From a virus, in the IMG/VR virus record IMGVR_UViG_3300021136_000003, positions 1-64,000 of that record: DNA of 64,000 nucleotides; one strand, given 5' to 3'. A program made the position numbers and the translations under genes. Below the pieces are notes generated by a model, which saw only the letters and a program-made list of their open reading frames with translations, ran no database searches and was not told the DNA's origin. Below are positions 8,443 to 62,502 of this stretch, in pieces. Positions within the stretch are counted from its first letter, which is position 1, and every line of letters begins with the position of its first letter.

Positions 8443-9153
8443 ATGCCGCAACCTTACGTCTATTTAATAACAAATTTCCTTACCGGTGAATTCTACTATG
8501 GATTGAGAGCCAAAAATGTTCAATTGGCAAGAACCCCTGAGGAAGATTTTTGGATTCACTATGAAACGTCATCAAAAAGAGTAAAGCAACTAATTCACCA
8601 ATATGGAAAGGATTCCTTTGACTTTGAAATCGTATTCCGGAATGATTCGTTCGACGCATGTTACCAAAAAGAACAGGAACTTATAGGGGCACATCTCAGT
8701 GATGAAAAATGCCTAAATATGTATTGTAGAGAAACCGGCAAATTCTCTACATATGGCAACAAACAATCTGATGCCACAAAAGAGAAAATCCGAGCCAAGG
8801 CTCTTGGCAGAGTTGTGTCACCTGATACGATAGCCAAAATAAAGCTATCGACAACTGGTGTTAAGAAGTCTTCCGAGTGGGTTTCTAACGCGGCGGCAGG
8901 GCGTACTGGCAAAAAGAATAAAAACCCTGCATGGAATAAAGGTCTCACTGGCCAACCAGGCCACCCGAACGCCCTTAAGGGCACCACTGGATTACGCCCA
9001 CACACTGAACAGTCAAGATCAGCCATTGGCAACGCTCTTCGGGGAATGAAACATGAGATTGTTACTTGTCCACATTGTGGCCAAACTGGTGGAAAACCCG
9101 CAATGCGTCAATGGCATTTTGATCATTGTAAATTCAAGAATTCCCAAAGGTGA
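8443..9153 (+). CDS. GIY-YIG homing endonuclease with NUMOD3-like repeats
   Basis: A 236-residue protein. The N-terminus has the GIY-YIG variant YVYLITN...FYYGLR, with a downstream GKDSFDFEIV segment. The middle carries repeats of the type SDATKEKIRAKALGR and SPDTIAKI that match NUMOD3 DNA-binding modules. The C-terminus ends in a CPHCGQ...HFDHC zinc finger. It sits on the strand opposite to rIIA, as a free-standing intergenic homing gene. It is AT-rich compared with flanking genes. The end overlaps the minus-strand gene at 9134. Confidence 0.85.
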   Translation: MPQPYVYLITNFLTGEFYYGLRAKNVQLARTPEEDFWIHYETSSKRVKQLIHQYGKDSFDFEIVFRNDSFDACYQKEQELIGAHLSDEKCLNMYCRETGKFSTYGNKQSDATKEKIRAKALGRVVSPDTIAKIKLSTTGVKKSSEWVSNAAAGRTGKKNKNPAWNKGLTGQPGHPNALKGTTGLRPHTEQSRSAIGNALRGMKHEIVTCPHCGQTGGKPAMRQWHFDHCKFKNSQR

Positions 9154-11403: not shown

Positions 11404-12960
11404 TCACCGTTTACGCATCGACCTGCCGACGCCCGCAGTCGGTTCAGCCGTGGCCTGCCGCGTGGCTGGTTTAGCTTTGCGAGGTGCGCTACCTGTTGCA
11501 ATTTCTTCAGCGCCAGCTGCGAAATCTTCTTCAGATTCTACATCATCTACCTCAGCAACCCCTGGATCACTGCTGACACTTCCGTCTGTCCGACCAAGTT
11601 TGAAGCACAATCCTCCCGCTTTAGGATCAACTGCACTGCACTTATTCTCACATGAAATATGTCCATCTAACTTAGCCGGCCATTGTGTTGCGAAATATAA
11701 TACTCCTCCCTTATAATCAGTGTATTGTTGGATGAAGTTCATTTCCAGAATCTCCAGAACTGCTTCTTGGAAACCGGGGATGGCTTCATTTTCATTAATT
11801 GCATTCGCCACATCCTTCTTGACAAGATAGACTAGCTTCCCGCCGTCGCTTGCATCCTTGCTGGAGATTTCACTGACCAGACTTTGAAATACTTTAGGCA
11901 ACGCAGATGGAAATCCGCCCTTCTTATTGCTGATGCTGTCATCACACATCTTTGCTATGTCAGGATAGTTGTCTGCCCACGGTAGAAATTTCAGATACTT
12001 CTTCGGCAGCACGGTTGGTTGGTTCTGAAATATCAGGTCCATAGCCTCGAATCCTTGTACGATTGTACCTGGCACGCCGCCCTTCGGTTTTGGCTTCTTA
12101 CAAATATCAATGAACTCAACGATCACTTCGTATTCGGGATCTGTCAACATCCTGTCAGGAACCTTCAAACCTGATATAGCGGGCGCAGCGCCGCCGCCGG
12201 TACCCTTGCTGGAGATATTTAATGTATGGTTGGTTGTTCCGTTAGTGATACTTGCGTAACTGTCTGCAATATTGTTGTTTGATCCTTCGGGGAAATTGAT
12301 AACTAATTCACCAATATCAGCACCTAGCCATTCAGTAAATTTTGCTTTGGCAGGAAACCGAGTCTGATTGTACAACAAGGCCAACACTCCGAGATACTCC
12401 CCGGCGTAGTCAACGATAGCTTTGCGTACTTTTTCTTTCTTCTGATACTCTTCCGGAAGCATAACAATTTCGCCGGCCCTGATGTATTCAGCTAGCTGGA
12501 TAACTACTTTGCCATATTCTGTGCTGTTCAACACAGGGTTGCTGACAATTTCATCATATAGTTCATGTGCTGCAATATTTCGGTTAACAATCTGAATATC
12601 TTTGGGCTTAACTACAAGTGCTTCTTTGCCGGCAGTGTCGGCTCCAGCGCCTGCTGTTATTGCACTGCCGCCGAAGTCAGAAGTCTTTGCAAACTTACTA
12701 AGCGGAATTTCAAGATCATCAGTTGTTCTGGCAGCAAGATTACCCTTGAAGTTGTTTGCAATTTTAAGATCCGTGAAGCGTTTAGCCTCGCGAGGATCGA
12801 TGGTAACTTCTCCGCCATCTAGCAGTGTAAAGGGTTGACGAGCCTTGATCTTTTCGATGAACTTTTCAAAGCGGCCCGGGCGACTATTGATTTCGCCGGC
12901 TGACAGTTTTCCCGGGGCTTCCGTGAGGGTTTGTATTAGATTGAGTAAATTTCGCATCAT
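11404..12960 (-). CDS. large phage protein of unknown function, tag-like N-terminus
   Basis: A 518-residue protein starting MMRNLLNLIQTLTEA. The LTE|A pattern resembles a prohead-protease site. The C-terminal third has a cysteine cluster (HISCENKC...GGLCFKLG), a GVAEVDD motif like those in the 700-residue protein at 59651, and a basic Ala/Pro tail ending RSMRKR. The start follows a late-promoter motif (GATAAATACATGATG). Large size and late motif suggest a virion protein, but I do not recognise the family. Confidence 0.6.
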   Translation of the reverse strand: MMRNLLNLIQTLTEAPGKLSAGEINSRPGRFEKFIEKIKARQPFTLLDGGEVTIDPREAKRFTDLKIANNFKGNLAARTTDDLEIPLSKFAKTSDFGGSAITAGAGADTAGKEALVVKPKDIQIVNRNIAAHELYDEIVSNPVLNSTEYGKVVIQLAEYIRAGEIVMLPEEYQKKEKVRKAIVDYAGEYLGVLALLYNQTRFPAKAKFTEWLGADIGELVINFPEGSNNNIADSYASITNGTTNHTLNISSKGTGGGAAPAISGLKVPDRMLTDPEYEVIVEFIDICKKPKPKGGVPGTIVQGFEAMDLIFQNQPTVLPKKYLKFLPWADNYPDIAKMCDDSISNKKGGFPSALPKVFQSLVSEISSKDASDGGKLVYLVKKDVANAINENEAIPGFQEAVLEILEMNFIQQYTDYKGGVLYFATQWPAKLDGHISCENKCSAVDPKAGGLCFKLGRTDGSVSSDPGVAEVDDVESEEDFAAGAEEIATGSAPRKAKPATRQATAEPTAGVGRSMRKR

Positions 12961-48838: not shown

Positions 48839-49564
48839 ATGACTATTTATTATCTCTATGTTAAGACCCATAAAATAACAGGTCTTAAATATCTCGGCTA
48901 CACAGGAAAAGCAGACCCATATAAATACCTCGGTTCCGGTGAGTATTGGAAAACACATCTCAAAAAACATGGAAAAGAAATCACGACGGAAATATTACAT
49001 GAATGCCAATCTAAAACAGAAATCAAAGATCGCGGGTTGTATTACAGCGAATTATGGAATGTAGTGGATGCCTGTGATGTCCTGGGCAAAAAGACTTGGG
49101 CCAACCTAAAACCTGAAGCCGGGGAAGGTGGTGATTGTGGTCCTAAAGGACGAGCGGAAATTTCACGCAAAGGTAAAGGACGGACACATTCTGATCTAAC
49201 TAAGCGTAAAATGAGCTATTCACATACTGGTACCATAATGTCTGGCATTACCAAGGAAAAGATAGGACTTAAAAACGCCGGCAAGAAACACACGGATGCC
49301 TTCTGTGATTTACATCGAGGGCCCAATAACAAGTTTTTTGGTACAGGCCCGTTTAACGGAAAAACTCACTCCATCGAGACTAAGGAGAAGATTAGTGCCA
49401 AAAATACAGGGAGAAAGCACACCGAGGAGGCCCGTCTAAACATAAGCAAAAAGATGGCCGGAATAAAAATGGCTGAAGTGACTTGTCCCCATTGCTCCAA
49501 AGTAGGAGCAGGAGGGGCAATGAAACAATGGCACTTTGATAAGTGTAAGTTTAACCGAAGGTGA
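48839..49564 (+). CDS. GIY-YIG homing endonuclease with NUMOD3-like repeats
   Basis: A 241-residue protein. IYYLYVKTHKITGLKYLGYT is the GIY-YIG pair, KYLGSGEYWKTHLKKHG follows. There are three NUMOD3-like repeats (SDLTKRKMSYSH, SIETKEKISAKN, TEEARLNISKKM). It ends in CPHCSK...HFDKC. It lies between the clamp and the polymerase C-terminal gene and shares its leader and C-terminus with three other homing genes. The stop region overlaps the polymerase gene by 14 nt. Confidence 0.87.
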   Translation: MTIYYLYVKTHKITGLKYLGYTGKADPYKYLGSGEYWKTHLKKHGKEITTEILHECQSKTEIKDRGLYYSELWNVVDACDVLGKKTWANLKPEAGEGGDCGPKGRAEISRKGKGRTHSDLTKRKMSYSHTGTIMSGITKEKIGLKNAGKKHTDAFCDLHRGPNNKFFGTGPFNGKTHSIETKEKISAKNTGRKHTEEARLNISKKMAGIKMAEVTCPHCSKVGAGGAMKQWHFDKCKFNRR

Positions 49565-50798
49565 ATAGAGAATCAACTGTAGAGTTGGTGTCTGTATTGG
49601 AACGTAAGTCCCAGTTCATAACACCGAGTAAGTTGTCGATCTTTTCATCAACTAACGTCTTTTCCATTAATAGATTGTCGAACGGAAGTTCTTTGAACCA
49701 TTCTGGCAATCTCATTTCATCAACTGGGTATGCAATGCTGGTGTAACCCAATGGGTTGTTTTTCAGCTTACATACCACAATCTTCATGCCATCCATGATC
49801 TTCATTGAGTAGTTGTCGTTATGGACTCGACGCAGCCAGTTCCAGTTGATAGCAGCCCGAACGTGACCAGGCATGTTTGCCCTGCCTGTTCGACTTTTCT
49901 CTTCCGCTTCACCATACATCGTCAGCTTGTTAACTGACTTAGGCGAACCCTTTGTCCATCCGTCTTGGTTGCCCAATTCAGTTTTGAACGTCTTGATAAC
50001 CTCAATGATATCCTGACGATCTTTACCATCAAGGACCATCTCCAACACTCGCATCAGGAACTCTTGAACATACTTAGGTGTGTCAGCGCGTTTCAGATCA
50101 AGACCCATAGCCTTGATTTGACCAATGCCGAATCTGACACCGTTCTTCTTAGCCTTGTCCATGTCATACTGATCCAGACGCTTGCCTTCTTTGTCGTAGA
50201 TGTTCAGAGCATACCGCTTCTTAGTGATAAACAACGACCGATCAGCAACCAGTTCTCGACCTGCTTTGATGATTTCGCCGTTCTTGCGTGGAGCATGAAA
50301 CGACTTCTCCATAAAGCCAGCGAACCCGTCATTGATCTGATCAGCGATATTGTCGTACAACTGAATAGCAACGTCTTTGCTCCAAGTCATTGTGCTAGCA
50401 GCAACTTCATCCTTCATCAGAGGCCATGCAGAGAAATAACAAGAGTCAGTGTCACCGTATACGATTGCTTGCCCGGTGTAGTCATACTCTCCGGTGACGA
50501 TTTCATTGATGTGTGCGCTCATGTGCTTCACAATCTGCCTGCCTGATAGAGTAACCGATTGACCGATACGCTTATCGTAGAAACGACAGTGTTCATTCAA
50601 CAGGGCACCGTAAGCTGAGTTCAACAAAATCTTTCTGACCAGTTGTCGCTTGTCCCAATAATCTGTAAATTCCTTTATTTTCTCCTGTGAAGCGACTATC
50701 TTCCCATTTTTAATCACAAGGTTATGCAACTTCATATATTGTCGCAATTCCGATACATTTCTGGTTTTTACCAAGTGTTTAATATGTTCTACATCCAT
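49551..50798 (-). CDS. 43: DNA polymerase gp43, C-terminal part
   Basis: A 415-residue fragment of a family B polymerase. KILLNSAYGALLNEH (about 56-70) is motif B with K56, N60, Y63 and G64. YGDTDSCYFS (about 112-121) is motif C with the two catalytic aspartates. The C-terminus ends SLFTFG, like the clamp-binding tail SLDFLFG of T4 gp43. It has no exonuclease domain or motif A; these are encoded at 51526-53217. The start MDVEHIKH has no good ribosome site. Confidence 0.9.
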   Translation of the reverse strand: MDVEHIKHLVKTRNVSELRQYMKLHNLVIKNGKIVASQEKIKEFTDYWDKRQLVRKILLNSAYGALLNEHCRFYDKRIGQSVTLSGRQIVKHMSAHINEIVTGEYDYTGQAIVYGDTDSCYFSAWPLMKDEVAASTMTWSKDVAIQLYDNIADQINDGFAGFMEKSFHAPRKNGEIIKAGRELVADRSLFITKKRYALNIYDKEGKRLDQYDMDKAKKNGVRFGIGQIKAMGLDLKRADTPKYVQEFLMRVLEMVLDGKDRQDIIEVIKTFKTELGNQDGWTKGSPKSVNKLTMYGEAEEKSRTGRANMPGHVRAAINWNWLRRVHNDNYSMKIMDGMKIVVCKLKNNPLGYTSIAYPVDEMRLPEWFKELPFDNLLMEKTLVDEKIDNLLGVMNWDLRSNTDTNSTVDSLFTFG

Positions 50799-50847: not shown

Positions 50848-51546
50848 ATGGGGTTAAATAAAAAATACAATGAAAGCACTTACTCTGCTGCCGTAAAAAA
50901 ACTCGGTTACACCGCGTTGGAACCTTATAATGGTATCACCTTTAAAATAAATCATATGTGTCATACCTGTAACAATATTTGGAATACGCAACCCAGGCAA
51001 GTCTTGAATGGAATAGGTTGTCGTCATTGTTTCCAGTTGAGAGTTCGCAAACCGATTGACTTGGTAAAGACGAGTTTATTGCCCGGTCAATGGGAAATAG
51101 TTGACGATAACGAATACAAAAACTCATATTTACCGCTGCATTTTAAACACCATTGTGGTCATATAGTAAAGTCTTCCCTCGAGGTAATATTACGCACTGA
51201 CGAACACCGCAAACGTTGTCCGGTTTGCACCCCACATAAAATAAGAGAAGGAACGTGGTCAAAACCAGTCGAACATGATGGCCGTAAATATTCATCAACC
51301 TTGGAGGCAACGTGCTGTGAATATCTTATTGGTAAGTTTGGATTATCGGATATCATATTACAAAAAGAATATTCGGTTGATGATAGAAGAACAGCGGATG
51401 CATATATTAAAAGTTTGGATACTTATGTAGAAGTTAGCAGTATAGGAAAAGAATGGTATTTAGAAAGGATTTACAGAAAACGGGATCTTGTAAAAAACTT
51501 CATCTTCGTGTCATCCCTTTCTCAACTACGGACTATGATTAAGTAA
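50848..51546 (+). CDS. putative homing endonuclease, VSR/PD-(D/E)xK-like
   Basis: A 232-residue protein. The N-terminal half has zinc-knuckle pairs (CHTCNNIW...GCRHC and CGH...CPVC). The C-terminal third has EYSVDDRRTADAYIKSLDTYVEVSS. Its D...E-V-S pattern resembles the core of very-short-patch-repair/PD-(D/E)xK nucleases, where Lys is replaced by Ser. AGGAG lies upstream. The gene occupies the interval that splits the DNA polymerase and lies on the opposite strand. The end overlaps the N-terminal polymerase gene by 21 nt. Confidence 0.7.
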   Translation: MGLNKKYNESTYSAAVKKLGYTALEPYNGITFKINHMCHTCNNIWNTQPRQVLNGIGCRHCFQLRVRKPIDLVKTSLLPGQWEIVDDNEYKNSYLPLHFKHHCGHIVKSSLEVILRTDEHRKRCPVCTPHKIREGTWSKPVEHDGRKYSSTLEATCCEYLIGKFGLSDIILQKEYSVDDRRTADAYIKSLDTYVEVSSIGKEWYLERIYRKRDLVKNFIFVSSLSQLRTMIK

Positions 51547-53217
51547 AGCTACCATTTCATCGTCTACATCTATCCCCGCGGCAAGTTCAGAACAGAGTTT
51601 CATTTTCCGTTGTTGAGCCTTACGATCACTGTACCACTTACCAAGTAGTCCCGGGATGATACCTTGATTAGCATACGAGAAGATCGTGCCGTTCGCACTG
51701 ATCATCCATGGATTGTGACTGTCAAAGATCATCTTCCAGATTTCAGCAGCACTTTTCTCCTCAGTGCGTCCATCTTCGTAGTCAATCGTCAGCAGAGTGC
51801 CGCGTTCTTGGTTCATGATCGAGGTGTATTCTAACGACCCGAACAAACCTTCCCAGAGGACACTTCCCGTCACATCATCGTCGCCATCTTTGTGGCGTTT
51901 CTTCTCACGTGCCAGTCTCATGCCCTTTTCGTGCATGAACTGATCTGTCAGTGTTTGTCTGACCTGAGCAATGATGGTTTCTGGCGCCATGTTAAGCGCC
52001 CGGATCGTTGAGGGATAGAGCGAGTTAATGTCAACTGCTCCGACCCATTCGTGAATTCCCTTTTTGGGAGTAGCAACATAGGCACCTGCCGCTTGTTGTT
52101 GGATATCATCATTTTCAACCCTTCGTTTTTTATCAGGAACTACCAGACCATGATCATGAGCTTCGTTCATGATCGCCATTTCAACCATTGCCACTGTACC
52201 CATGACAACCGGAATCAACACGGTGTTTTCGTGTGCCAGTTGATTTGCCAGTTCAAGAAAGTGAACTTTAGCATGGATCTTATATACCAACTTCGTATCT
52301 TGTCTGTTGTATTCAATGAACTTTTTGAAGTCTTTGTTATACAACTGATCCAGAGTACCCTCGTATGAAGTCTTGTTTTCGTGAACTTCTAACTCGCCAA
52401 TAGCATCTAGTTTGTAGCTGTGGCGACTCTCGTAGTTGTACTTTTTGTAGAGTTGAAGATAGTCAAGATGAATACGACCGATCAAGTCGTAAGTTGTTTC
52501 TTCTTTGCCGAAGCGTTCGTATGTGCGAGCCTTAGGTAGCTGACCTAGTAAACAGAACTTTCGTGTGTCGTTCTTGCTCATAACTCGGGTGACACGATTA
52601 ACCATGTAGGGTATGTCGTATCCTTCAGAGTTCCAACCAGTTAACACATCGGCATCGTCAATCAACTGAAAGAACACATCGAACATGTCCTTCTCACTGG
52701 TGAACAGCATGGTGTCCTCGAACGAATCGCAGATTTCTTGTGCTGTCTCCGGCGTCATGTGCTTAGGAGCAATGACAAGAGTGACAAGACGATCAAGCCA
52801 GTCAAGATACATTGAGATAGCAGTGATCTTGTTCATCGCTTCTGATGCAGGGGAGAAGCCTTTGTCAGGATCGAAGTCAGTTTCAATGTCGAAGAAGCAA
52901 GTGTGAAGTTTGGGAGCATCAATGTTGCGATAGTTCTCACTAAGGCATCTGCCCACAACGCCAATATCACTCTCAAACATTTTCTTGCCGGAGTTTATTC
53001 GTCGTTCTTTTTCAAACTCTGTTCGCTTTCGGCAGGAGAATCGACTGACCGGGAGTGCGGTGCCCGCACTCAGCCCGCGATACTTGCCTTTGGGATCCGC
53101 GTAGTAAAATGTATAGTTTGCCTGATACTCTTTATACTGACGCTTACCGTCCTTGTCCCGTTCTACAACAACGATCTGCTCAGAGTCTTTATTGTGGATT
53201 GCGTCAACAAATGACAT
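51526..53217 (-). CDS. 43: DNA polymerase gp43, N-terminal part
   Basis: A 563-residue fragment of a T4-type polymerase. FFDIETDFD (about 108-116) is exonuclease motif I, GWNSEGYDIPYM is Exo II and YNRQDTKL is Exo III. DINSLYPS is polymerase motif A. The chain stops after the helix KWYSDRKAQQRKMKL (fingers) and LLNHSP. Motifs B and C are on the downstream gene. Together the two parts give about 978 residues versus 898 in T4 gp43. They must associate in trans or be spliced. Confidence 0.92.
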   Translation of the reverse strand: MSFVDAIHNKDSEQIVVVERDKDGKRQYKEYQANYTFYYADPKGKYRGLSAGTALPVSRFSCRKRTEFEKERRINSGKKMFESDIGVVGRCLSENYRNIDAPKLHTCFFDIETDFDPDKGFSPASEAMNKITAISMYLDWLDRLVTLVIAPKHMTPETAQEICDSFEDTMLFTSEKDMFDVFFQLIDDADVLTGWNSEGYDIPYMVNRVTRVMSKNDTRKFCLLGQLPKARTYERFGKEETTYDLIGRIHLDYLQLYKKYNYESRHSYKLDAIGELEVHENKTSYEGTLDQLYNKDFKKFIEYNRQDTKLVYKIHAKVHFLELANQLAHENTVLIPVVMGTVAMVEMAIMNEAHDHGLVVPDKKRRVENDDIQQQAAGAYVATPKKGIHEWVGAVDINSLYPSTIRALNMAPETIIAQVRQTLTDQFMHEKGMRLAREKKRHKDGDDDVTGSVLWEGLFGSLEYTSIMNQERGTLLTIDYEDGRTEEKSAAEIWKMIFDSHNPWMISANGTIFSYANQGIIPGLLGKWYSDRKAQQRKMKLCSELAAGIDVDDEMVALLNHSP

Positions 53218-53603: not shown

Positions 53604-54251
53604 ATGACTATTTATTCATACAAAAATCCACCCGATGGATTTTATACATACGCATATTTGCGTGATGATAACACCCCGTATTACATTGGTAAGGGACAGG
53701 ACAAGCGAGCATGGAAACACGCAAAAACGGAAGTATTCAGAACACCCAAAGATCATTCCAGAATAATTATTTTAGAGGCCAACTTATCAGAGGTCGGCGC
53801 GCTTGCTTTAGAAAGATTTTATATTCGTTGGTACGGTCGCAAAAATGAAAACACCGGTATACTTCGCAATAAAACAGCGGGCGGTGAGGGAATTTCTGGT
53901 TTTAAACATTCCCAAGACACTAAGGATAAGATCAGAGAAAAACGCCTCGGCTCCATTCCATCATCAGAGGCGCGTCTTAAACAAAGTCGGGCATTGAAGG
54001 GTGTAAAGAGGGGACCACATTCCTTGGAACGCAGAGCGGCTATTAGCAAAAGTAGAAAGGGATATACATATTCTACAGATCGTAATGCTAAGGTAGCTGC
54101 CGCCCATACAGGAAAGAAGCGAGTTGAGCATGGAATAAATATGACCGGGGCTAATAATCCGTCATTTGGTAAACACTGGTTTAATAACGGGGAAGTTTCT
54201 ATTTTAACCTTTGATTGCCCCGAGGGGTTTGCACCTGGAATGCTGAGATAA
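53604..54251 (+). CDS. GIY-YIG homing endonuclease with NUMOD3-like repeats
   Basis: A 215-residue protein. FYTYAYLRDDNTPYYIGKGQ is the GIY-YIG pair. SQDTKDKIREKRLGS and SLERRAAISKSR are NUMOD3-like repeats, and the end (GKHWFNNGEVS) differs from the zinc-finger type. It lies between the DsbA-like gene and the tagged-protein cassette on the opposite strand. Confidence 0.87.
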   Translation: MTIYSYKNPPDGFYTYAYLRDDNTPYYIGKGQDKRAWKHAKTEVFRTPKDHSRIIILEANLSEVGALALERFYIRWYGRKNENTGILRNKTAGGEGISGFKHSQDTKDKIREKRLGSIPSSEARLKQSRALKGVKRGPHSLERRAAISKSRKGYTYSTDRNAKVAAAHTGKKRVEHGINMTGANNPSFGKHWFNNGEVSILTFDCPEGFAPGMLR

Positions 54252-54253
54252 CT

Positions 54254-54331
54254 TTATTTTAGCTTAGGTTTACCGAATACAGTTTCGCGGATAGTCTGTC
54301 CGGTCTGTAGTTTGCGCTCGTATAATCTCAT
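54254..54331 (-). CDS. 25-residue reading frame, possibly truncated gene
   Basis: A short frame (MRLYERKLQTGQTIRETVFG) whose ATG overlaps the stop of the upstream gene (ATGA). It ends 2 nt after the homing gene. It may be the start of a gene truncated when that element inserted, or a real micro-protein. Confidence 0.35.
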   Translation of the reverse strand: MRLYERKLQTGQTIRETVFGKPKLK

Positions 54332-55179
54332 TTTCCTGTCCAGACGGCGTATAGTCCGGAGTTATATTCACCACTATATACAGTGCTTAACTTAGTTTTT
54401 ACAGCGGCTTCTAATTCTTTCCCGGTGTCATTGGGCTGCACATCAAATGCAAAGTATAAGGAACCATACCCGCCCTTACCAATATACTGTCCGCCTAATT
54501 GTCCCATGATGATGTCAATCGTCTGATCAGCCTTTTTATTACGTTTTTCATCATACTGTTTATCGCCTCTCCGGGCGTAGGGATCTATTTTTATGGTAGT
54601 TAAATTATCATCATGGACAGACACATACCCTTTCATATCCACGCCCGGGATTCCTGATATGCTAACCCAGTTCTTGCGGCCGCCAGGTGTTTGACTTGTC
54701 CCGGCTAGTAATGGTAACTTCAATATAGTCAGCACAATGCCGTATAATGCTTTGGCCAGACCTATGCCACGATAGTCCTCGTCAACTGTGATTGTTCCAA
54801 CTTTAACAGCATTCTTCAGGGGAAAAGATTTTGCCTTATCCACAGTAAGTTCACCGATTAATTGACCCGGTGCTTTTAGTTTTTGTTGTTCTCGTTCCCA
54901 GTCGCGTACTCTACCATGGAATCGACGGCGTTGAATAACTGGCTTTGATTCTGCACCTCTTCGTTTAGCCTGAATAAAGTCTTCTCCGTTCGGATCCCAA
55001 ATTCTAATAGCGGTGCTTCCCCAGTTACCACTCCCTATACTGTACAAAAGACCGCTGCCACCTGGTAAGGCAGATACTTTCTTGCCGGAGTCTGTGCCAC
55101 CTAAATAGCCCTTACCACCTTCGTAATCGTCAGGTCGTAGTCGTTCAATCCCCTCATTGATAAATTCATTTGCTCTCAT
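54328..55179 (-). CDS. tagged GNAT-like acetyltransferase, candidate head-packaged protein
   Basis: A 283-residue protein. The N-terminus MRANEFINEG fits the pattern of T4 capsid-targeting peptides, with a predicted cut after INE. Residues about 150-190 (VGTITVDEDYRGIGLAKALY) form a GNAT acetyl-CoA loop. The rest is basic, with a Gly-rich section (GGQYIGKGGYGSLYFA). It overlaps the metallopeptidase gene upstream by 4 nt and has a CCGGAG ribosome site. The acceptor is unknown. Confidence 0.7.
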   Translation of the reverse strand: MRANEFINEGIERLRPDDYEGGKGYLGGTDSGKKVSALPGGSGLLYSIGSGNWGSTAIRIWDPNGEDFIQAKRRGAESKPVIQRRRFHGRVRDWEREQQKLKAPGQLIGELTVDKAKSFPLKNAVKVGTITVDEDYRGIGLAKALYGIVLTILKLPLLAGTSQTPGGRKNWVSISGIPGVDMKGYVSVHDDNLTTIKIDPYARRGDKQYDEKRNKKADQTIDIIMGQLGGQYIGKGGYGSLYFAFDVQPNDTGKELEAAVKTKLSTVYSGEYNSGLYAVWTGK

Positions 55180-55751
55180 TGGAATATCTCCGGATGTTCC
55201 TTGCCGTATATCTTGATATACTTTCCGGCCATGGCATCAGCCAGTACTTCGATGGGGCTGCCGGGATAACTGTCGCCGTCTTTGACCATGCCCATCTGAT
55301 ATTGTCTGGTATGGGTGAGTTCGTGGAAAACAGTACGGAGAATGTCAATAAGGTTTCTGTTCCCGACATAAATCCAGATCGTGTTGGCAGCAGGAGTGTT
55401 CAATCCAGTGTGGTGACCTTCTCTGGCTGCGTCTGAGTCTTTGCTTAGAGTGATCTTGGGATATGGTTGTTGAATATGCAGCACTTCTATAGCCCACTTG
55501 ATGAAGTCTCTGGTTTGTTCGTCTGAATTATCATCACCTTCTTCGTGTAGTTTGTCTTTGATCAGATCATGTGGCGACTTAAGGTGCTTTCGTTTGAACA
55601 TATCATGTAGTGCATCGTCTGTAAGATTATGTCTACGGGCAATTTTGTGCATAAGATTGTCAAGGGCACTGTGACCGTGAGTAAGGTGGCTTGGTAGTTG
55701 ACGCTCTAGGTCATTTAAAGCTGATTCTGTGATAAATTGATTGGCGCGCAT
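55176..55751 (-). CDS. tagged zinc metallopeptidase-like protein, candidate head-packaged protein
   Basis: A 191-residue protein. The tag is MRANQFITES. FHELTHTRQYQ contains HExxH, and about 20 residues later GSPIEVLADAMAG provides the glutamate ligand, as in gluzincin-type peptidases. A long His-rich helical stretch separates tag and catalytic part. The start lies 4 nt after a CATAAATA late motif. It is probably a protease delivered with or acting on the head. Confidence 0.72.
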   Translation of the reverse strand: MRANQFITESALNDLERQLPSHLTHGHSALDNLMHKIARRHNLTDDALHDMFKRKHLKSPHDLIKDKLHEEGDDNSDEQTRDFIKWAIEVLHIQQPYPKITLSKDSDAAREGHHTGLNTPAANTIWIYVGNRNLIDILRTVFHELTHTRQYQMGMVKDGDSYPGSPIEVLADAMAGKYIKIYGKEHPEIFQ

Positions 55752-55872: not shown

Positions 55873-57438
55873 TCAGGTAAAATACGGATCAACGATAACA
55901 ATGGTGCCGTCTCGCCGCATCATTGCATTCTCGGTATGAAGGTCCCAACCGAGTCCAGATTTGAGTCCAGCATGATACAACCTGGACATTGTCAAATATA
56001 ATATTCCGAATTGTTTGCTGACTACCGGGTCAGCGAATCTCTCAGCAATCAACTGAGGCATCTCCTGCCAACTAGGAGGCCAAGTACCCGGCTTCTTCAA
56101 CATGCTGACTACATTGCTCCAGGGCGCTCTGATCTTTGCTAGATCACTCAGCAACCACACTATGCGTTGCTCAAAGCTTTTGTCTGGAATCGGCAACAGT
56201 CGTTCCATTGCGATTTGTCTATACGGCGTCCCGTTAATTTCAAACACAGTAGTTCCTTGCCCACCAATATCAATAAATCGCGGCAGATTAGGTAACTCCG
56301 GATGCTTTTTACAGAATTCATAAAAGGTCATAAAGCCTTTTTCAGCATTGGTGACATCACTTGGCAAAGTGCGTCTGGGCATCAGAATCTTGATGACATG
56401 ATTATCATCCTTCGCCCACACTGTGGCGTCAGCACCGTGACCTAACTTCTTGTATCCGAGCCCTTCTAACTTGGAGAAGATTTGTCTGCTGTTGGGAGTA
56501 TCACGCTCGTATTCATCTAATTTATCCGGCATAAGTTTAACCACTCGAGGCTTGAACAACTGTATGTCACCTTTATTTGTCCGCAAGGTTGGCTGGTTAT
56601 GTTTGTCCTTACCGAAGCCTTTAATCTCAGCAGGACTGTTCTTAAATTTTCCCTTCAAAATTTTGTCACCGGTGTGTAGTGTTGGCGGACTATAGGAATC
56701 CTCAGCGACGAGATGTTTATCATCACCTGACTTTTGCCATGCGTCCCACATTCCTCTACCCGCTGTAGTTCGTTGAAAACTAGGTCTTATATCATTGCCC
56801 AACATCTTCGCATACGCATACATAGTGGATGCTACACCTTTATTTCTATATTTTGGATCAACTTCAGTGCCGCCACTTTCCATGTATCCATCGTTCGTAT
56901 CATCTTCCCAGTCAAATATTTGAAACAATATTTGACCTATTTCTTTATTACCATCATATGCTTTAATGTTCAACAATGGTTCATCCATAAATATCTCAAC
57001 TGACGCTTTGTAAGTATAATCACCAATCTCTTGAGTATGATTGAATTTTTTATTAAGAATATCAGGATTTATTGTTTCGTCTAACTTCTTTGACGCATAC
57101 GCCACGGGAACTGTCTTCATTCCGGCGAGCCAGAACGCAACCATACGATGGCGACCTTCCATGACGAATAGATCAGGATCGCCCTGCTCCACATACATTG
57201 GCATCGGAGTGGCACCTTGTTTCAACAGACGAAGAATCTTGTTTGTTCGCCGTTCGTCTTTGGGAAACTCATTGAAGGTTCCGTGCATCTCTTTGATCTG
57301 ACCCAGGAACTTGTCAATAGGTTCATGCTTGATATGAACTTCAATCTGATCAGGTTCGGCGTGTAGCCATTGAGCCACGCTGACCAGATCCTCTCTTGTA
57401 GGATCTATTGTTTCGTATAGAAATATATGGGCTCTCAT
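55873..57438 (-). CDS. tagged ParB-like/GNAT-like/kinase-like multidomain protein
   Basis: A 521-residue protein with tag MRAHIFLYET. Residues about 35-115 end in FVMEGRHRMVAFWLAGMKTV, a ParB/sulfiredoxin-like motif. Residues about 190-225 (KYRNKGVASTMYAYAKML) resemble a GNAT loop. Residues about 325-521 form a kinase-like domain. It has LGHGADATVWAKDDNHVIKIL as the Gly loop and lysine, GWDLHTENAMM as the catalytic loop and IVDPYF in place of DFG. It is probably injected to modify host proteins, but activity is untested. Confidence 0.7.
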   Translation of the reverse strand: MRAHIFLYETIDPTREDLVSVAQWLHAEPDQIEVHIKHEPIDKFLGQIKEMHGTFNEFPKDERRTNKILRLLKQGATPMPMYVEQGDPDLFVMEGRHRMVAFWLAGMKTVPVAYASKKLDETINPDILNKKFNHTQEIGDYTYKASVEIFMDEPLLNIKAYDGNKEIGQILFQIFDWEDDTNDGYMESGGTEVDPKYRNKGVASTMYAYAKMLGNDIRPSFQRTTAGRGMWDAWQKSGDDKHLVAEDSYSPPTLHTGDKILKGKFKNSPAEIKGFGKDKHNQPTLRTNKGDIQLFKPRVVKLMPDKLDEYERDTPNSRQIFSKLEGLGYKKLGHGADATVWAKDDNHVIKILMPRRTLPSDVTNAEKGFMTFYEFCKKHPELPNLPRFIDIGGQGTTVFEINGTPYRQIAMERLLPIPDKSFEQRIVWLLSDLAKIRAPWSNVVSMLKKPGTWPPSWQEMPQLIAERFADPVVSKQFGILYLTMSRLYHAGLKSGLGWDLHTENAMMRRDGTIVIVDPYFT

Positions 57439-57821
57439 TGTAGTTCTGATAGATCAATGTATTTAATCGAAGTGCCTTTATATGCTGCTGCCAACGCACG
57501 ATGATTGCCGTCGATGATCCTATGCTCAGATATCACAATAACTTTGTCAGCTAATGTTGGATCATTCATGTAGCGTTCAAGAATTTCTTTCTGATCCGGG
57601 GCCATCATGTCAACAATTTCATCAAGGTGCTCGACCCGGTATTGACCAAGCAACATGATTTCTATTTTGTATCGGGGCATCGTATGAATCATCAACGGCG
57701 TGTCAAGATCCATTGTTCCTATCTCATCCCATAGAGATTCATCGCGCCCCGGAAGATCACTGTCGTATAAATCATTCAGCGTTGTTTGCTGACTCTCGGA
57801 TAGAAACTCTGTGGCTCTCAT
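57435..57821 (-). CDS. tagged ParB-like protein
   Basis: A 128-residue protein with tag MRATEFLSES. The C-terminal part IIDGNHRALAAAYKGTSIKY is the DGNHR-type motif of ParB/sulfiredoxin-fold nucleases and NTPases. It overlaps the previous gene by 4 nt. The role is unknown; the same fold is repeated in the neighbouring 521- and 700-residue proteins. Confidence 0.72.
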   Translation of the reverse strand: MRATEFLSESQQTTLNDLYDSDLPGRDESLWDEIGTMDLDTPLMIHTMPRYKIEIMLLGQYRVEHLDEIVDMMAPDQKEILERYMNDPTLADKVIVISEHRIIDGNHRALAAAYKGTSIKYIDLSELQ

Positions 57822-57822
57822 A

Positions 57823-59646
57823 TTAGTCTGCCGGTTGAACGATGAGTTCCCGTCGTTGCTCCGGTGTTAGTCCCATTTGATTTACTATCTCAATCGCTCG
57901 GTCATATGCGCCGGCGTTTACGGCGCCCGGTGGCGCCATAAATGGTTCGCCAATGTGTTCACCGGTATTACGATTAACAAGCGCCCACGGGACCATACCA
58001 GGCGTAGTGCCGGGTTGAGTTGTTTCAGGTTCCCAATCTTGATTAGGAGTCAGATAACCGGAGCGTGTTCTGATGCTAGCAGCCGGCGCTGCTACTTCGG
58101 GGCCCTGTTTCTTAATATTTCTTTGTAGCTGTACCTGCTTGATGAAGCTTTTTAGGGCGGCTGCTGGCATATCACCGGCGACATACTTGGCGAAGATACC
58201 AATCGGATCGCCTTCACCCTTTGGGGCCAGGATCTTGTACAGCTTCTTCAGATATTCTTTGCGATACTTCTGTGGATCACTTGCGGCGTCAAGCGCAACT
58301 ACAGTTCTCAACAACGTATTTTCAATCTTGTCGAAGTTATCATCTAACCAATCGCCGCCGGGCGATCTGAACTCAATGTAGTCACCTTTGTTGTTGATGC
58401 TGATGTATTTGTCTGTGTTGCCACTGTGAATTGCTTTTGACGCAAACTTGTCAAGACCTGAACGCATCTTTTCCAGAACTGCTTTGGCATCTGCATCACG
58501 TGTCATTGCGTATTGCTTTACTTTGGCCAGTGCTGACTTACAGAATGTGTTTGCTTCACGCCCGAATTGTTCAAGTATGTAATCATCTCCGAGCAACAGA
58601 GCAAGTTTAACATAGTCTCTGTCGGCACCTTGAGGCACGCTGACATTGATGTGAAGACCGGTTGATTCGTTTGTGTAGCAACCGGTCTCATCTGCCCATG
58701 CTTTAACTTTCTTCAGATCAGCGATGATATCAGGGATAGACATCGGCGGACTGATGAATTCCAGACCACCATCTTCAGGTTCATTCGGTGAGTCAAGACT
58801 TCCGTCCGGTTCAAGTGAGTATGCAGTTGGAGAACGACCGGCACGATGATATCCACCGGTTATGACTTTCTTACCCATTGCTTTGCTGAACATCTCACCG
58901 ACTGAATCCATGTCAAGCTCACCGGCTTCAGGCGCGGTGCGATACGGCCATGTAATAGTGTAGTTATTTTCCACATCACTCATGCGACGGAGGTTGTTAT
59001 CACGTAGGAAGTCACGTTGATCAGGACATTCCCAATCATTTTCCCATTCTTCACGGGCCTTGTCATATAACCTGCCTTGAGAGTCCCATTCTTCTTCTAC
59101 TTTTTCATCAAATGCTTCTTCAGCAACGGTAACGGCTCGGACCCAGTTATGATACGCCGGCGTATCAGGTAACTCTTTACTTGTCTGTATGCCTTTTGCA
59201 GAGTCTCCACCGTCTTTGGCTTCGTCTTTTTCTTCTGCGGTGAATCCAAGATCATTCATTGCTTGATCGATTGCTTCGTCGGCGTCCCAATCATTTTCTT
59301 CCATGTATGTTTTCAGCAGTTCTTTACCTTCTTGGTGCCACTGTTCAGATTGTTGCTCCATGCCCCATTCAGAGTAAGCATCTTCAAGTTCGTCACGCAG
59401 CATTGCTAAATCTCTACGATCATTGTAGCCATCGCCGCCGTTAAAGAAGCGGATGATATAGTCTATATCATTGGCCTGCTCATCCATACTATAGTCAGGC
59501 ACAGATTCGTAGTCATTGTCTGGCCCACCTGCGTTCGGGACATACATCTCAAACTCCATGCCTGCCATGGCGTTGATCTTCTCGGCGTCCCTTCTCAGGG
59601 AGTTCGGATTCATTGCTATTTCGTTTAAAAACTCTAATGCTCTCAT
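57823..59646 (-). CDS. tagged amidoligase-like protein
   Basis: A 607-residue protein with tag MRALEFLNEI. GMEFEMYVPNAGG (about 29-41) and GLEFISPPMSIPDIIADLKK with STGLHINVSVP are the hallmarks of amidoligase/glutamine-synthetase-like enzymes. A long acidic coiled region lies between them. Such enzymes form amide bonds between amino groups and carboxylates. The start lies near an ACTAAATA motif (59652-59659). It is the largest enzyme of the tagged cassette. Confidence 0.7.
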   Translation of the reverse strand: MRALEFLNEIAMNPNSLRRDAEKINAMAGMEFEMYVPNAGGPDNDYESVPDYSMDEQANDIDYIIRFFNGGDGYNDRRDLAMLRDELEDAYSEWGMEQQSEQWHQEGKELLKTYMEENDWDADEAIDQAMNDLGFTAEEKDEAKDGGDSAKGIQTSKELPDTPAYHNWVRAVTVAEEAFDEKVEEEWDSQGRLYDKAREEWENDWECPDQRDFLRDNNLRRMSDVENNYTITWPYRTAPEAGELDMDSVGEMFSKAMGKKVITGGYHRAGRSPTAYSLEPDGSLDSPNEPEDGGLEFISPPMSIPDIIADLKKVKAWADETGCYTNESTGLHINVSVPQGADRDYVKLALLLGDDYILEQFGREANTFCKSALAKVKQYAMTRDADAKAVLEKMRSGLDKFASKAIHSGNTDKYISINNKGDYIEFRSPGGDWLDDNFDKIENTLLRTVVALDAASDPQKYRKEYLKKLYKILAPKGEGDPIGIFAKYVAGDMPAAALKSFIKQVQLQRNIKKQGPEVAAPAASIRTRSGYLTPNQDWEPETTQPGTTPGMVPWALVNRNTGEHIGEPFMAPPGAVNAGAYDRAIEIVNQMGLTPEQRRELIVQPAD

Positions 59647-59650
59647 ACGA

Positions 59651-61753
59651 TTATTTAGTCAGTGGTTTATTTGTCCCAGCTAACCTGCTAATCGCACGTT
59701 TCATACCAGAATTACGATCTTTCTTACCTGTGAGTGTATCAGTCATTGCTTTGCCAAGATAACTCTTTACTGCGGGATCACTGATTTCATCCATCTCTTG
59801 ATTGAACTTGCCTTCGAAGTCCTCCTGTTCATCTGGGCCAGGTGCTTCTGGTGTTGAAGGGACAAGACTATCATAGTCTTTCATTGTCAGAGTTCTGCCA
59901 CGTTGGCAACCTGCTACTAGCTTTTCAGCAAGATCATGTAGAGCCATATCGTCAGCCGCATCTTCCTTGGCAAACTCAAGCAGTCTGATCAGCAATGGAA
60001 CGTCAAGCTTCACCACATCAGCGGGGTTCATCGCCTGCTCTGGTTTAGATAGCAGTCCTGATTTAGGGCGACGACGGTCAGCAGATAGAACTACATCATC
60101 TTCTGTGATTTCACCTTCAGCAACGTTAGATGCTCCGGTTGCCGCCGGGTGCAGGTTATTAATGATACGTTTAAGGCCGGCTATTTCTTTCATCAGTTTG
60201 GCAATCTCTGCGTCGTGGCGCTTATCGTTCTTTTCAGTAATGTCTAGTCCTCGCTGCATCCACTTGTTCATGGCTTCATCAGGGCTTAGAGTAGCACCGT
60301 AGTGTCGCTGCGCCCACTCAGATTTGCGTCTTAATTCCGGGTCATTAGATTGTGCCACAGAAGGATTAGCACTAACATCTACGTGCTTGTTCTTATCAGG
60401 GCCCACCATGTTTATCGGGCCAGACTTCTTACCTGCTTGAGGTTGTGCTGCAACAGCCTGTCCTGCTGGTAGTGTATTTGCTTCCGCCACACCTTGCCTA
60501 GATTTAACGTGTCTATATCCAGTTTTATAATCTTCTGCATCCTGTTCGCTGTTGTGGATATTGTTATATGACTTTTTTCTGTGGGCATCTAATCTGCCTT
60601 GCTCATATGGGGTCGGGGTGCTACCAGAATGTTTTGTTTTGCGTGGTGCTGAATGGTCGTTAAATTTTGGAGATGTAGGATCCTTGTTCAACAAATCAGA
60701 TATGGAGCCTTCCGCCACACCTTGCTCTTTGTCGGCTGCGCCAGTATCTTTAGTAGTATGTCTCGTAGAGAAATACTTTTCAGTTTTTCCTAACTGTTTT
60801 GGTTTAGCATTTTGTTTTTGCCATTCTTTTTTATCGTCTGCTTCCGCCACACCTTGCTGACCTTTAATGCCAACATAGGCTTTAATAGTAGAGATCCCTA
60901 ATGCTTTTGCTACATTGGCTCTGTGATAGCCATCTAATATATTACCATCACTACCAACTACTATAGGGGGAGCCTTGCTAAAGTCCATCTTTTTGTATTG
61001 CTCTACTTTTGTTCTATCTAATCCTGACAATTCAGTTCTGATGGAATTTAGTGGGATATTTTTTAGCACAAACTTGCTGTTCGTATTAGTAAGATGATTT
61101 AGATAATCGGGGTGTAGATTCTCATCGTGGTGCTGTCTTAGATACGCAATCATATCTTCTGTAGACATATCATTAGAGAAGCCTTCCGCCACCTTCTTAT
61201 TCTTGTTATCAAGCATACCACGCTTGTTGGCGGTTGCCCAGGCGATATTTTCTGCTTCTTTCGAGGACTTGCCAAGTTTCTTCTCGCTTGATTTGACATG
61301 ACCGACCATGCGATCTACCTTGGCGCCTTCTTCGACTGACTCATACTGGTATGTACCAAACGCATTAGCATAATTGCGGCCATCTTCTGTGTCGGTATGC
61401 TCCTTATCACCGGTACCGTTGCAAGTTGGGCATATAACTTTAGTGGCACCTTTCTTATTGTCTGGGTATAGTTTGCCACCGAGTTTATACTGCACCTTGC
61501 GACCATGACAAGCAGTGCAGTTTGTATTCTGGTGTTTGATAGTTTGACCGGGCATGTGATCTACATCATGCGGGAAACCCTCGCCTTCGTGTAGGCTGTT
61601 AGCATACTTCGCTGAAGTTTTGATACCTTTGAGTAGATTGCTACCTTTAAGTTTCTTCTCCGGAGTGCGCTTTTGAACGGTTTCAAATGGTTGAGCGAAT
61701 GTTGCTACAGCGCCTGCAGTTGTTGAACATTCTTCGAGGTGTTTGATTTGCAT
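59651..61753 (-). CDS. modular 700-residue protein with repeated GVAE sites
   Basis: A 700-residue protein starting MQIKHLEECS, a tag-like end. VAEG/VAEA motifs recur about every 60-200 residues (NKKVAEGF, QGVAEADD, QGVAEGSI, QGVAEANT, SNVAEGEI). Between them lie unlike modules: two DnaJ-like CxxCxG sites (CTACHG and CPTCNGTG), a ParB-like ILDGYHRANVAKALG, and helical parts. At DNA level CTTCCGCCACACCTTGC repeats three times. This looks like a head-internal protein built from cassettes, perhaps cut at each VAE. Confidence 0.65.
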   Translation of the reverse strand: MQIKHLEECSTTAGAVATFAQPFETVQKRTPEKKLKGSNLLKGIKTSAKYANSLHEGEGFPHDVDHMPGQTIKHQNTNCTACHGRKVQYKLGGKLYPDNKKGATKVICPTCNGTGDKEHTDTEDGRNYANAFGTYQYESVEEGAKVDRMVGHVKSSEKKLGKSSKEAENIAWATANKRGMLDNKNKKVAEGFSNDMSTEDMIAYLRQHHDENLHPDYLNHLTNTNSKFVLKNIPLNSIRTELSGLDRTKVEQYKKMDFSKAPPIVVGSDGNILDGYHRANVAKALGISTIKAYVGIKGQQGVAEADDKKEWQKQNAKPKQLGKTEKYFSTRHTTKDTGAADKEQGVAEGSISDLLNKDPTSPKFNDHSAPRKTKHSGSTPTPYEQGRLDAHRKKSYNNIHNSEQDAEDYKTGYRHVKSRQGVAEANTLPAGQAVAAQPQAGKKSGPINMVGPDKNKHVDVSANPSVAQSNDPELRRKSEWAQRHYGATLSPDEAMNKWMQRGLDITEKNDKRHDAEIAKLMKEIAGLKRIINNLHPAATGASNVAEGEITEDDVVLSADRRRPKSGLLSKPEQAMNPADVVKLDVPLLIRLLEFAKEDAADDMALHDLAEKLVAGCQRGRTLTMKDYDSLVPSTPEAPGPDEQEDFEGKFNQEMDEISDPAVKSYLGKAMTDTLTGKKDRNSGMKRAISRLAGTNKPLTK
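60481..60497. repeat. direct repeat in the modular gene (copy 1)
   Basis: CTTCCGCCACACCTTGC, which on the minus strand encodes QGVAE. Identical copies lie at 60709-60725 and 60841-60857, with a shorter copy at 61183-61195. Confidence 0.85.
60709..60725. repeat. direct repeat in the modular gene (copy 2)
   Basis: Identical 17-nt unit CTTCCGCCACACCTTGC at a module boundary of the 700-residue protein. Confidence 0.85.
60841..60857. repeat. direct repeat in the modular gene (copy 3)
   Basis: Identical 17-nt unit CTTCCGCCACACCTTGC; spacing to copy 2 is 132 nt, an in-frame module of 44 residues. Confidence 0.85.
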
Positions 61754-61830: not shown

Positions 61831-62502
61831 TTATGCTATCGTCCAGCCTTTGTGTATTCGTCTTTTATTACGGACAACTGAATTTAAATTTGGCTGACAT
61901 AGATCATATTTCCTAATTAGGTCGTATTGAGTTAACGTTTCTATAATCCCTGTAGTGTGGATGAAGGTGTAAATTGTATGATCGTATTTGTAACTATTTT
62001 TGCCACTCAACTTTTCTTTAACTTCGGGTCTATTTTGTACTTCTTTTTGAAGTACGCTATTCCGAGTGCGATAATCTATGGATTGGTGGGCATCTATTTG
62101 CTTTTTAATATATTCTTTATTTTTCCATAACATTTTGTGGGAATCTGAATTTTTAAGTTTTGTAGCCGGCCTATTTTGAATTTCAGTGGCTAGCGCCGAA
62201 GTCATACCTTCGCCCCCGCCGTTTTCTTTAATCCGGTTAGCCCATATTTTATTGCCGAAATCATCCTGGCCGGTTACTACCCTCCATAGGCTACTATAAT
62301 ACATTCCCCAATAGTACAGTTCCTGTCTGCTCTGACAGGCAATAATAATTTCAGTTGAATGTTCTTTTCCGTGACGCATGAGATGGATCAACCAATCTTT
62401 ACCGGATCCGAGATATTTGTGTGGGTCTTTGCGTTTTGTCTGACAAAGATATTTTAAACCGGTAATATTATGGGTCTTAACCATAAGATAATAAATAGTC
62501 AT
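61831..62502 (-). CDS. GIY-YIG homing endonuclease
   Basis: A 223-residue protein. IYYLMVKTHNITGLKYLCQT is the GIY-YIG region, with Cys replacing Gly in YLG. KYLGSGKDWLIHLMRHG follows, as in the gene at 48839. The end carries a NUMOD1-like segment (TQYDLIRKYDLCQPNLNSVV). It is inserted between the NTase-ART gene and the modular protein on the same strand, with the shared leader upstream. The missing glycine may weaken activity. Confidence 0.8.
   Translation of the reverse strand: MTIYYLMVKTHNITGLKYLCQTKRKDPHKYLGSGKDWLIHLMRHGKEHSTEIIIACQSRQELYYWGMYYSSLWRVVTGQDDFGNKIWANRIKENGGGEGMTSALATEIQNRPATKLKNSDSHKMLWKNKEYIKKQIDAHQSIDYRTRNSVLQKEVQNRPEVKEKLSGKNSYKYDHTIYTFIHTTGIIETLTQYDLIRKYDLCQPNLNSVVRNKRRIHKGWTIA

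Follow-up and report, generated by a model that had tools for sequence, protein, structure and literature searches.

Exchangeable cassettes of a phage polyprotein are shuffled at a 16-nt repeat that most likely doubles as a head-protease site

The gene at positions 59651 to 61753 of the window, the 64,000-nucleotide stretch analyzed here (positions 1 to 64,000 of IMG/VR virus record IMGVR_UViG_3300021136_000003), encodes a 700-aa protein composed of unlike cassettes joined at VAE sites. Such cassettes are shuffled at the repeat encoding QGVAE, and the break points lie there. Many T4-related phages encode such long cassette chains, in which the 16-nt repeat CAAGGTGTGGCGGAAG is the swap site and most likely also the site of the head protease. 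The complete model, which we consider quite probable, describes internal head proteins that are exchangeable and joined in one capsid-targeted polyprotein, which the head protease would cleave at VAE|. An N-terminal targeting peptide would take the chain into the prohead core, a head maturation protease of the T4 gp21 type, specific for hydrophobic-x-Glu|, would cut after every VAE, and about six small proteins would be released, packaged, and injected. The proposed cut site is encoded by nearly the same sequence, CAAGGTGTGGCGGAAG, at most junctions, within and between phages and in one frame. Because of this near identity in a single frame, recombination between any pair of copies would join cassettes in frame and restore the cut site, so that phages could swap, gain, or lose cassettes. 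We infer that the chain is cut, packaged, and injected. A broader reading appears moderately likely, namely, that T4-related and jumbo phages draw on a large, open pool of injected effector cassettes by means of this dual-role 16-nt sequence and that almost any swap gives a functional cargo chain that separates itself. The parts of the gene are as follows.

59651..61753, minus strand: cassette polyprotein gene, an ORF of 700 aa with an identical copy in IMG/VR record G015
61730..61753, minus strand: N-terminal capsid-targeting-like peptide MQIKHLEE, then CSTTAGAVATFAQPF; like N-termini in other polyproteins
61184..61753, minus strand: cassette 1 (residues 1-190), with the targeting peptide, CxxCxG zinc-finger-like pairs, and a 45-residue EGAKVDRM...KNKK sub-module
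61184..61192, minus strand: junction 1, KK-VAE|G, AAGGTGGCGGAAGGC, a decayed repeat
60842..61183, minus strand: cassette 2 (residues 191-304), a ParB/sulfiredoxin-fold domain with the LDGYHR signature
60841..60857, minus strand: 17-nt repeat copy 1 (QGVAE|A)
60710..60841, minus strand: cassette 3 (residues 305-348), short and hydrophilic, with QGVAE at both borders
60709..60725, minus strand: 17-nt repeat copy 2 (QGVAE|G)
60482..60709, minus strand: cassette 4 (residues 349-424), GSISDLLNKD...HVKSR, with homologues L273, L274, and L276
60481..60497, minus strand: 17-nt repeat copy 3 (QGVAE|A)
60116..60481, minus strand: cassette 5 (residues 425-546), helical-looking, with the weak homologue L057 (36% over 74 aa)
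60116..60124, minus strand: junction 5, SN-VAE|G, AACGTTGCTGAAGG, not the repeat
59651..60115, minus strand: cassette 6 (residues 547-700 and stop), helical-looking, with homologues L063 (55%) and L024 (53%)

The original prediction of at least five VAE motifs and three identical in-frame 17-nt copies is confirmed by translation of the ORF and by residue shuffling. VAE occurs at residues 188, 302, 346, 422, and 544; after shuffling of its residues, the protein contains 0.21 VAE on average, and neither five VAE nor three QGVAE ever arise in 20,000 shuffles. That all sites read QGVAE(G/A) holds for three of the five (QGVAEA, QGVAEG, and QGVAEA), the remaining two being KKVAEG and SNVAEG. The 17-mer GCAAGGTGTGGCGGAAG (minus strand) is identical in the three QGVAE copies, with spacings of 132 and 228 nt, each a multiple of three, which keeps the copies in frame. 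Random choice among synonymous codons of this gene would make the three copies identical with a probability of 8.5e-5. No further copy of the 17-nt repeat is found elsewhere in the 121-kb virus record. The sequences between the sites differ, as predicted, and the cassettes are not duplicates of each other. A suggested relative, the 518-aa protein at position 11404 with the motif GVAEVDD, is ruled out as a further member at the DNA level: the motif is spelled GGGGTTGCTGAG, is not the DNA repeat, and sits in an acidic tail, and it was not counted as a junction.

Cassette 2 has a predicted ParB/sulfiredoxin fold, and the other cassettes of the protein have no assigned domain. The AlphaFold2 model of cassette 2 has a pLDDT of 90, and its Foldseek matches in the PDB are ParB-N and sulfiredoxin (probability of 1.00, best E value of 7e-4, TMq of ∼0.5). 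A Pfam search with the 700-aa protein gave no match, a PHROGs scan was almost empty, tblastn with the full-length protein gave no match in cultured phages, and an AlphaFold model of the entire chain made without an alignment is uninformative (pLDDT of 41). No homologue of cassette 3 was found in the local ORF set. Pfam-type matches in related polyproteins comprise GNAT acetyltransferase, cytidine deaminase, ParB/ParB_N, GP88, and DUF5872.

An exact scan of IMG/VR for the 16-mer CAAGGTGTGGCGGAAG finds it in at least 120 loci. All matches listed lie in frame as QGVAE inside an ORF, mostly a large one, and among them the ORFs often contain two to five copies of GVAE or QGVAE; the records reach sizes of up to 525 kb. 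The synonymous control word CAAGGAGTAGCAGAAG has 30 matches, in unrelated proteins and never with more than one GVAE per ORF. Inexact GVAE copies in repeat-bearing ORFs favor the codons GGT (93%), GTG (74%), GCG (69%), and GAA (81%), and the conservation around them stops at each edge of the repeat. Before counting, several GVAE hits in sliding-clamp-like proteins (INAVAEDKSV) were removed from the ORF scan. A VAE that is merely a common linker motif arising by chance, or the product of a recent tandem duplication in one protein, would suit the shortness of the motif and the partly low-complexity, hydrophilic cassettes. This explanation is extremely improbable given the shuffling statistics, the unrelated cassettes between the repeats, and the lack of mutual duplication among the protein's own cassettes; the in-frame occurrence in at least 120 loci, together with the break points at the repeat described below, rules it out.

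The prediction that modules recombine at the DNA repeats was followed up by comparison of homologues, with a clearly positive outcome that includes the cassettes of this protein. Loci of a 62-aa cassette were retrieved by protein sequence alone (53 loci) so as not to select by the repeat; in most nonidentical loci, both neighbors of the cassette differ, with the borders at (Q)GVAE. The ParB-like cassette 2 has unlike neighbors in its homologues. The three homologues of cassette 4 also differ in their neighbors, with the repeat marking their borders, and 44 distinct upstream contexts are found for the EGAKVDRM sub-module within cassette 1. Break-point pairs were defined by at least 85% DNA identity on one side of the junction and an unrelated sequence on the other (86 left shared and 130 right shared). 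In these 216 pairs, DNA identity persists as far as the repeat or extends into it, and it drops to ∼0.3 beyond it. Shuffling at the repeat is shown because homologous cassettes change neighbors and DNA similarity ends at the repeat edges. The 170 distinct complete cassettes sampled with GVAE at both ends fall into 126 families with a median length of 75 aa.

The EGAKVDRMVKHIEKSEKKLGKSSKEAENIAWATANKRGMLDNKNKK module (L279-L332) forms the end of many otherwise unlike phage proteins, with a Glu directly before it in all 44 distinct contexts.

The identity at fourfold-degenerate sites in the 62-aa cassette sample is 0.73 and 0.66 in the junction codons, compared to 0.49 in the cassette body and 0.31 in the flanks. 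A DNA word conserved past the need of the protein, with break points at it, might be the target of a dedicated site-specific recombinase or homing endonuclease, leading to integron-like exchange or targeted gene conversion, and GIY-YIG-like ORFs flank the polyprotein gene (61831-62502). This possibility is doubtful: in the unbiased sample, the repeat shows a silent-site drift incompatible with strict site recognition, no repeat-linked recombinase stood out among the genes read in an unsystematic look, and a crossover at a 16-nt repeat requires no special enzyme. Since the junction DNA is alike beyond the coding need and yet drifts, homogenization by repeated crossovers fits better than a strict enzyme site. 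Ordinary homologous or annealing recombination without a dedicated enzyme presumably makes the crossovers.

Homing-endonuclease-like ORFs of the GIY-YIG or NUMOD type are numerous and scattered in the genome, e.g., at 8443-9153, 48839-49564, and 53604-54251, and the GIY-YIG-like ORF at 61831-62502 adjoins the polyprotein gene. The family-B DNA polymerase is split between 49551-50798 and 51526-53217 of the window, with an ORF on the opposite strand (50848-51546) in between.

The protease reading of the junctions was assessed with cassette starts that were aligned to homologues solely by the sequence after the junction. Among 281 homologous non-GVAE junctions, P1 is Glu in 60%, compared to 5 to 10% at P6 to P12, and is missing in 40%, some of these being offset alignments or junctions of another type. 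P3 is V, I, L, or M in 55%, compared to ∼20% at positions more distant from the junction, and P2 is unconstrained. An exactly placed [VILM]xE is present in 138 of the 281 junctions, compared to 6 to 11 in controls that place the motif 3 to 8 residues away. In front of the EGAKVDRM sub-module, P1 is Glu in 44 of 44 contexts and P3 is V, I, L, or M in 66%, with the limitation that this Glu could belong to the module. A hydrophobic-x-Glu constraint at the junctions is evident from these alignments. Some observations count against the model: P3 at the repeat sites is Val, compared to Ile, Leu, or similar residues in the T4 substrates considered, P1 Glu is missing in the 40% of non-GVAE junctions given above, two of the five sites in this protein are not QGVAE, and cultured cyanophages keep related small modules in one protein that lacks the repeat.

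If the repeat were only a recombination seam, the shuffled cassettes would be fused into multidomain proteins that act whole and uncut, comparable to uncut polyvalent proteins. Such a seam would fit the observed shuffling, its break points, and the junction DNA kept beyond coding needs, and some polyvalent proteins are reported to be packaged uncut (PMC5512222). We regard such a pure seam as unlikely, because decayed repeats retain the P1 Glu and a hydrophobic P3 while P2 drifts, the sub-module is invariably preceded by Glu, and some cassettes stand alone behind targeting peptides with an equal site. Cutting of the chain after VAE by the head protease, by contrast, receives strong support from the sequences and would account for the constraint.

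In T4, capsid-targeting peptides guide proteins to the core of the prohead, and gp21 cleaves these peptides off (PMC5694885, PMC9958956, PMC3012670). The translated T4 starts are MKTYQEFIAE for ipII and ipIII, MAKINELLRE for gp24, and MELITELFDE for alt. Peptides of this T4 form, as in ipII and ipIII, also precede some single cassettes, which are then genes of their own and begin immediately behind MRATEFITE|, MRASEFITE|, or MKANEFITE|. Polyproteins with at least two GVAE contain [ILVMF]xE at residues 7 to 15 in 50 of 79 cases, compared to 332 of 1,315 other ORFs (p = 1e-11), and comparable polyprotein N-termini are MRFNQIVE|NTTAGSVATVAQPM and MKIKQITE|TTTAGAIATVNSPLGG. The start of the 700-aa protein, MQIKHLEE|, fits the hydrophobic-x-Glu form but lacks the stricter MR-x-x-EFIxE pattern found in four neighbors. 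The strict targeting motif is present in at least 8 of the 252 predicted genes of this phage and at 0 of 1,294 internal Met residues, and four of the genes with it belong to the cluster of the 700-aa gene, on its downstream side. The neighboring genes are as follows.

57823..59646, minus strand: neighbor gene starting with MRALEFLNE|, capsid-targeting peptide
57435..57821, minus strand: neighbor gene starting with MRATEFLSE|
55873..57438, minus strand: neighbor gene starting with MRAHIFLYE|, with matches to GNAT and kinase-like families
55176..55751, minus strand: neighbor gene starting with MRANQFITE|
54328..55179, minus strand: neighbor gene starting with MRANEFINE|

Of 22 repeat-bearing records, 7 encode a Peptidase_S77 protein, a member of the T4 gp21 family. 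These 7 records show the T4-like gene order portal-like, 67/68-like, 21, 22-like, 23, and their gp23 contains an LxE just before a conserved (T/S)AGxT segment, near the expected cut; this LxE is consistent with a protease specificity equal to hydrophobic-x-Glu. Neither an S77/gp21 protease nor a full gp23 was found in the two records that represent this phage, which overlap and are incomplete fragments, or in several large repeat-bearing records (G007 and G009), which are incomplete or of unknown completeness. The predicted cutting inside the head is thus favored by the retained [VILM]xE, the cassettes behind targeting peptides, and the gp21-type protease in some relatives, whereas the incomplete records of this phage contribute no protease.

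The 121-kb record represents a myovirus according to its genes for the tail sheath, tail tube, rIIA/rIIB, and family-B polymerase. IMG/VR record G015 (142 kb) overlaps it, is identical in the overlap compared, and contains the large terminase of this phage. A 99-aa gene of G015 (L194:17548-17847) has a 26-residue stretch that matches the C-terminal part of gp23 (PF07068, E value of 3e-4) and resembles a capsid-gene fragment or chimera. A search of 84,980 genomes of bacteria and archaea with a 19-mer from the repeat gave 7 matches; because none of them lies in a multicopy polyprotein, no host is named. G015 also contains a Gram-negative porin gene (L194:5674-6552; Pfam Porin_4, E value of 5e-27) whose start resembles a signal peptide. 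Phages do not usually encode porins, and the gene might point to the host.

Capsid-targeting peptides, gp21 sites, and polyvalent proteins are each already known. IPI, IPII, IPIII, and Alt of T4 resemble the polyprotein in the form of the N-terminal targeting peptide, the hydrophobic-x-Glu site, the presumed packaging and injection, and the diverse cargo. In contrast to these internal proteins, with one cargo per gene and one cut, the polyprotein would fuse several cargos, and its cut sites would double as crossover sites. Viral polyproteins and T4 gp22, gp67, and gp68 share with the proposed chain several cuts by one viral protease; the T4 core proteins are cut to waste peptides, whereas the fragments of the proposed polyprotein would be the products and are exchanged between phages. 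Integron cassettes and exon shuffling are similar in having interchangeable units between short common sites. Unlike integron cassettes, the units of the polyproteins are in-frame protein pieces without their own start, and we know of no integrase for them.

Polyvalent proteins (PMC5512222) are likewise multidomain proteins thought to be injected and share the domain types ParB/Srx, GNAT, ART, and deaminase; the ParB/sulfiredoxin superfamily of cassette 2 also occurs there. The passages of PMC5512222 considered mention no uniform interdomain repeat, in contrast to the repeated linker of the polyproteins. Release in polyvalent proteins is attributed there to embedded peptidases, whereas a separate head protease is proposed for the polyproteins. 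A zincin-like metallopeptidase hub, common but not universal, is given in PMC5512222 for ∼36% of polyvalent proteins; the 700-aa protein has no Pfam match to such a hub, and the related polyproteins scanned have no peptidase match.

The gp114 proteins of the cyanophages Syn9 and S-RIM8 (Kyanoviridae; L262:3149-4480 and L260:1750-3525, respectively) share modules with the polyproteins, combining the DUF5872-like KDACYxKVKSRYKVWPSAYASGALVKC, CWxGYK, and NPGSxLKxPSKK in one protein, and the module is found in 365 phage records. They differ in having no QGVAE repeat between the modules, and the module order is similar in the two proteins compared. As these cyanophages are cultured, gp114 offers a system in which cutting could be tested.

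No description of an equivalent system was found in the literature searched, which misses most subscription journals and preprints; within the same scope, QGVAEG, or GVAEG together with "phage," is absent. The combination not found described there is an in-frame cassette pool with one DNA word as crossover site and, very probably, as protease site. If the cutting is true, the polyproteins represent a modular phage delivery system with a common targeting peptide, cut site, and swap site, which would account for the diversification of injected proteins in uncultured T4-like phages. A simple rule, cutting at VAE| or hydrophobic-x-Glu, would then split unannotated chimeric phage proteins into functional units and provide many candidate anti-defense or host-takeover proteins, and the specificity of head proteases could be tested on natural multisite substrates.

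Outside the window, the same virus record encodes an 805-aa protein (65507-67924; L124:2507-4924) comprised of nucleotidyltransferase-like, HD hydrolase, and ART-PolyVal domains. A QGVTE|D site lies between the HD hydrolase and ART-PolyVal, and the protein is probably another polyprotein with a decayed junction.
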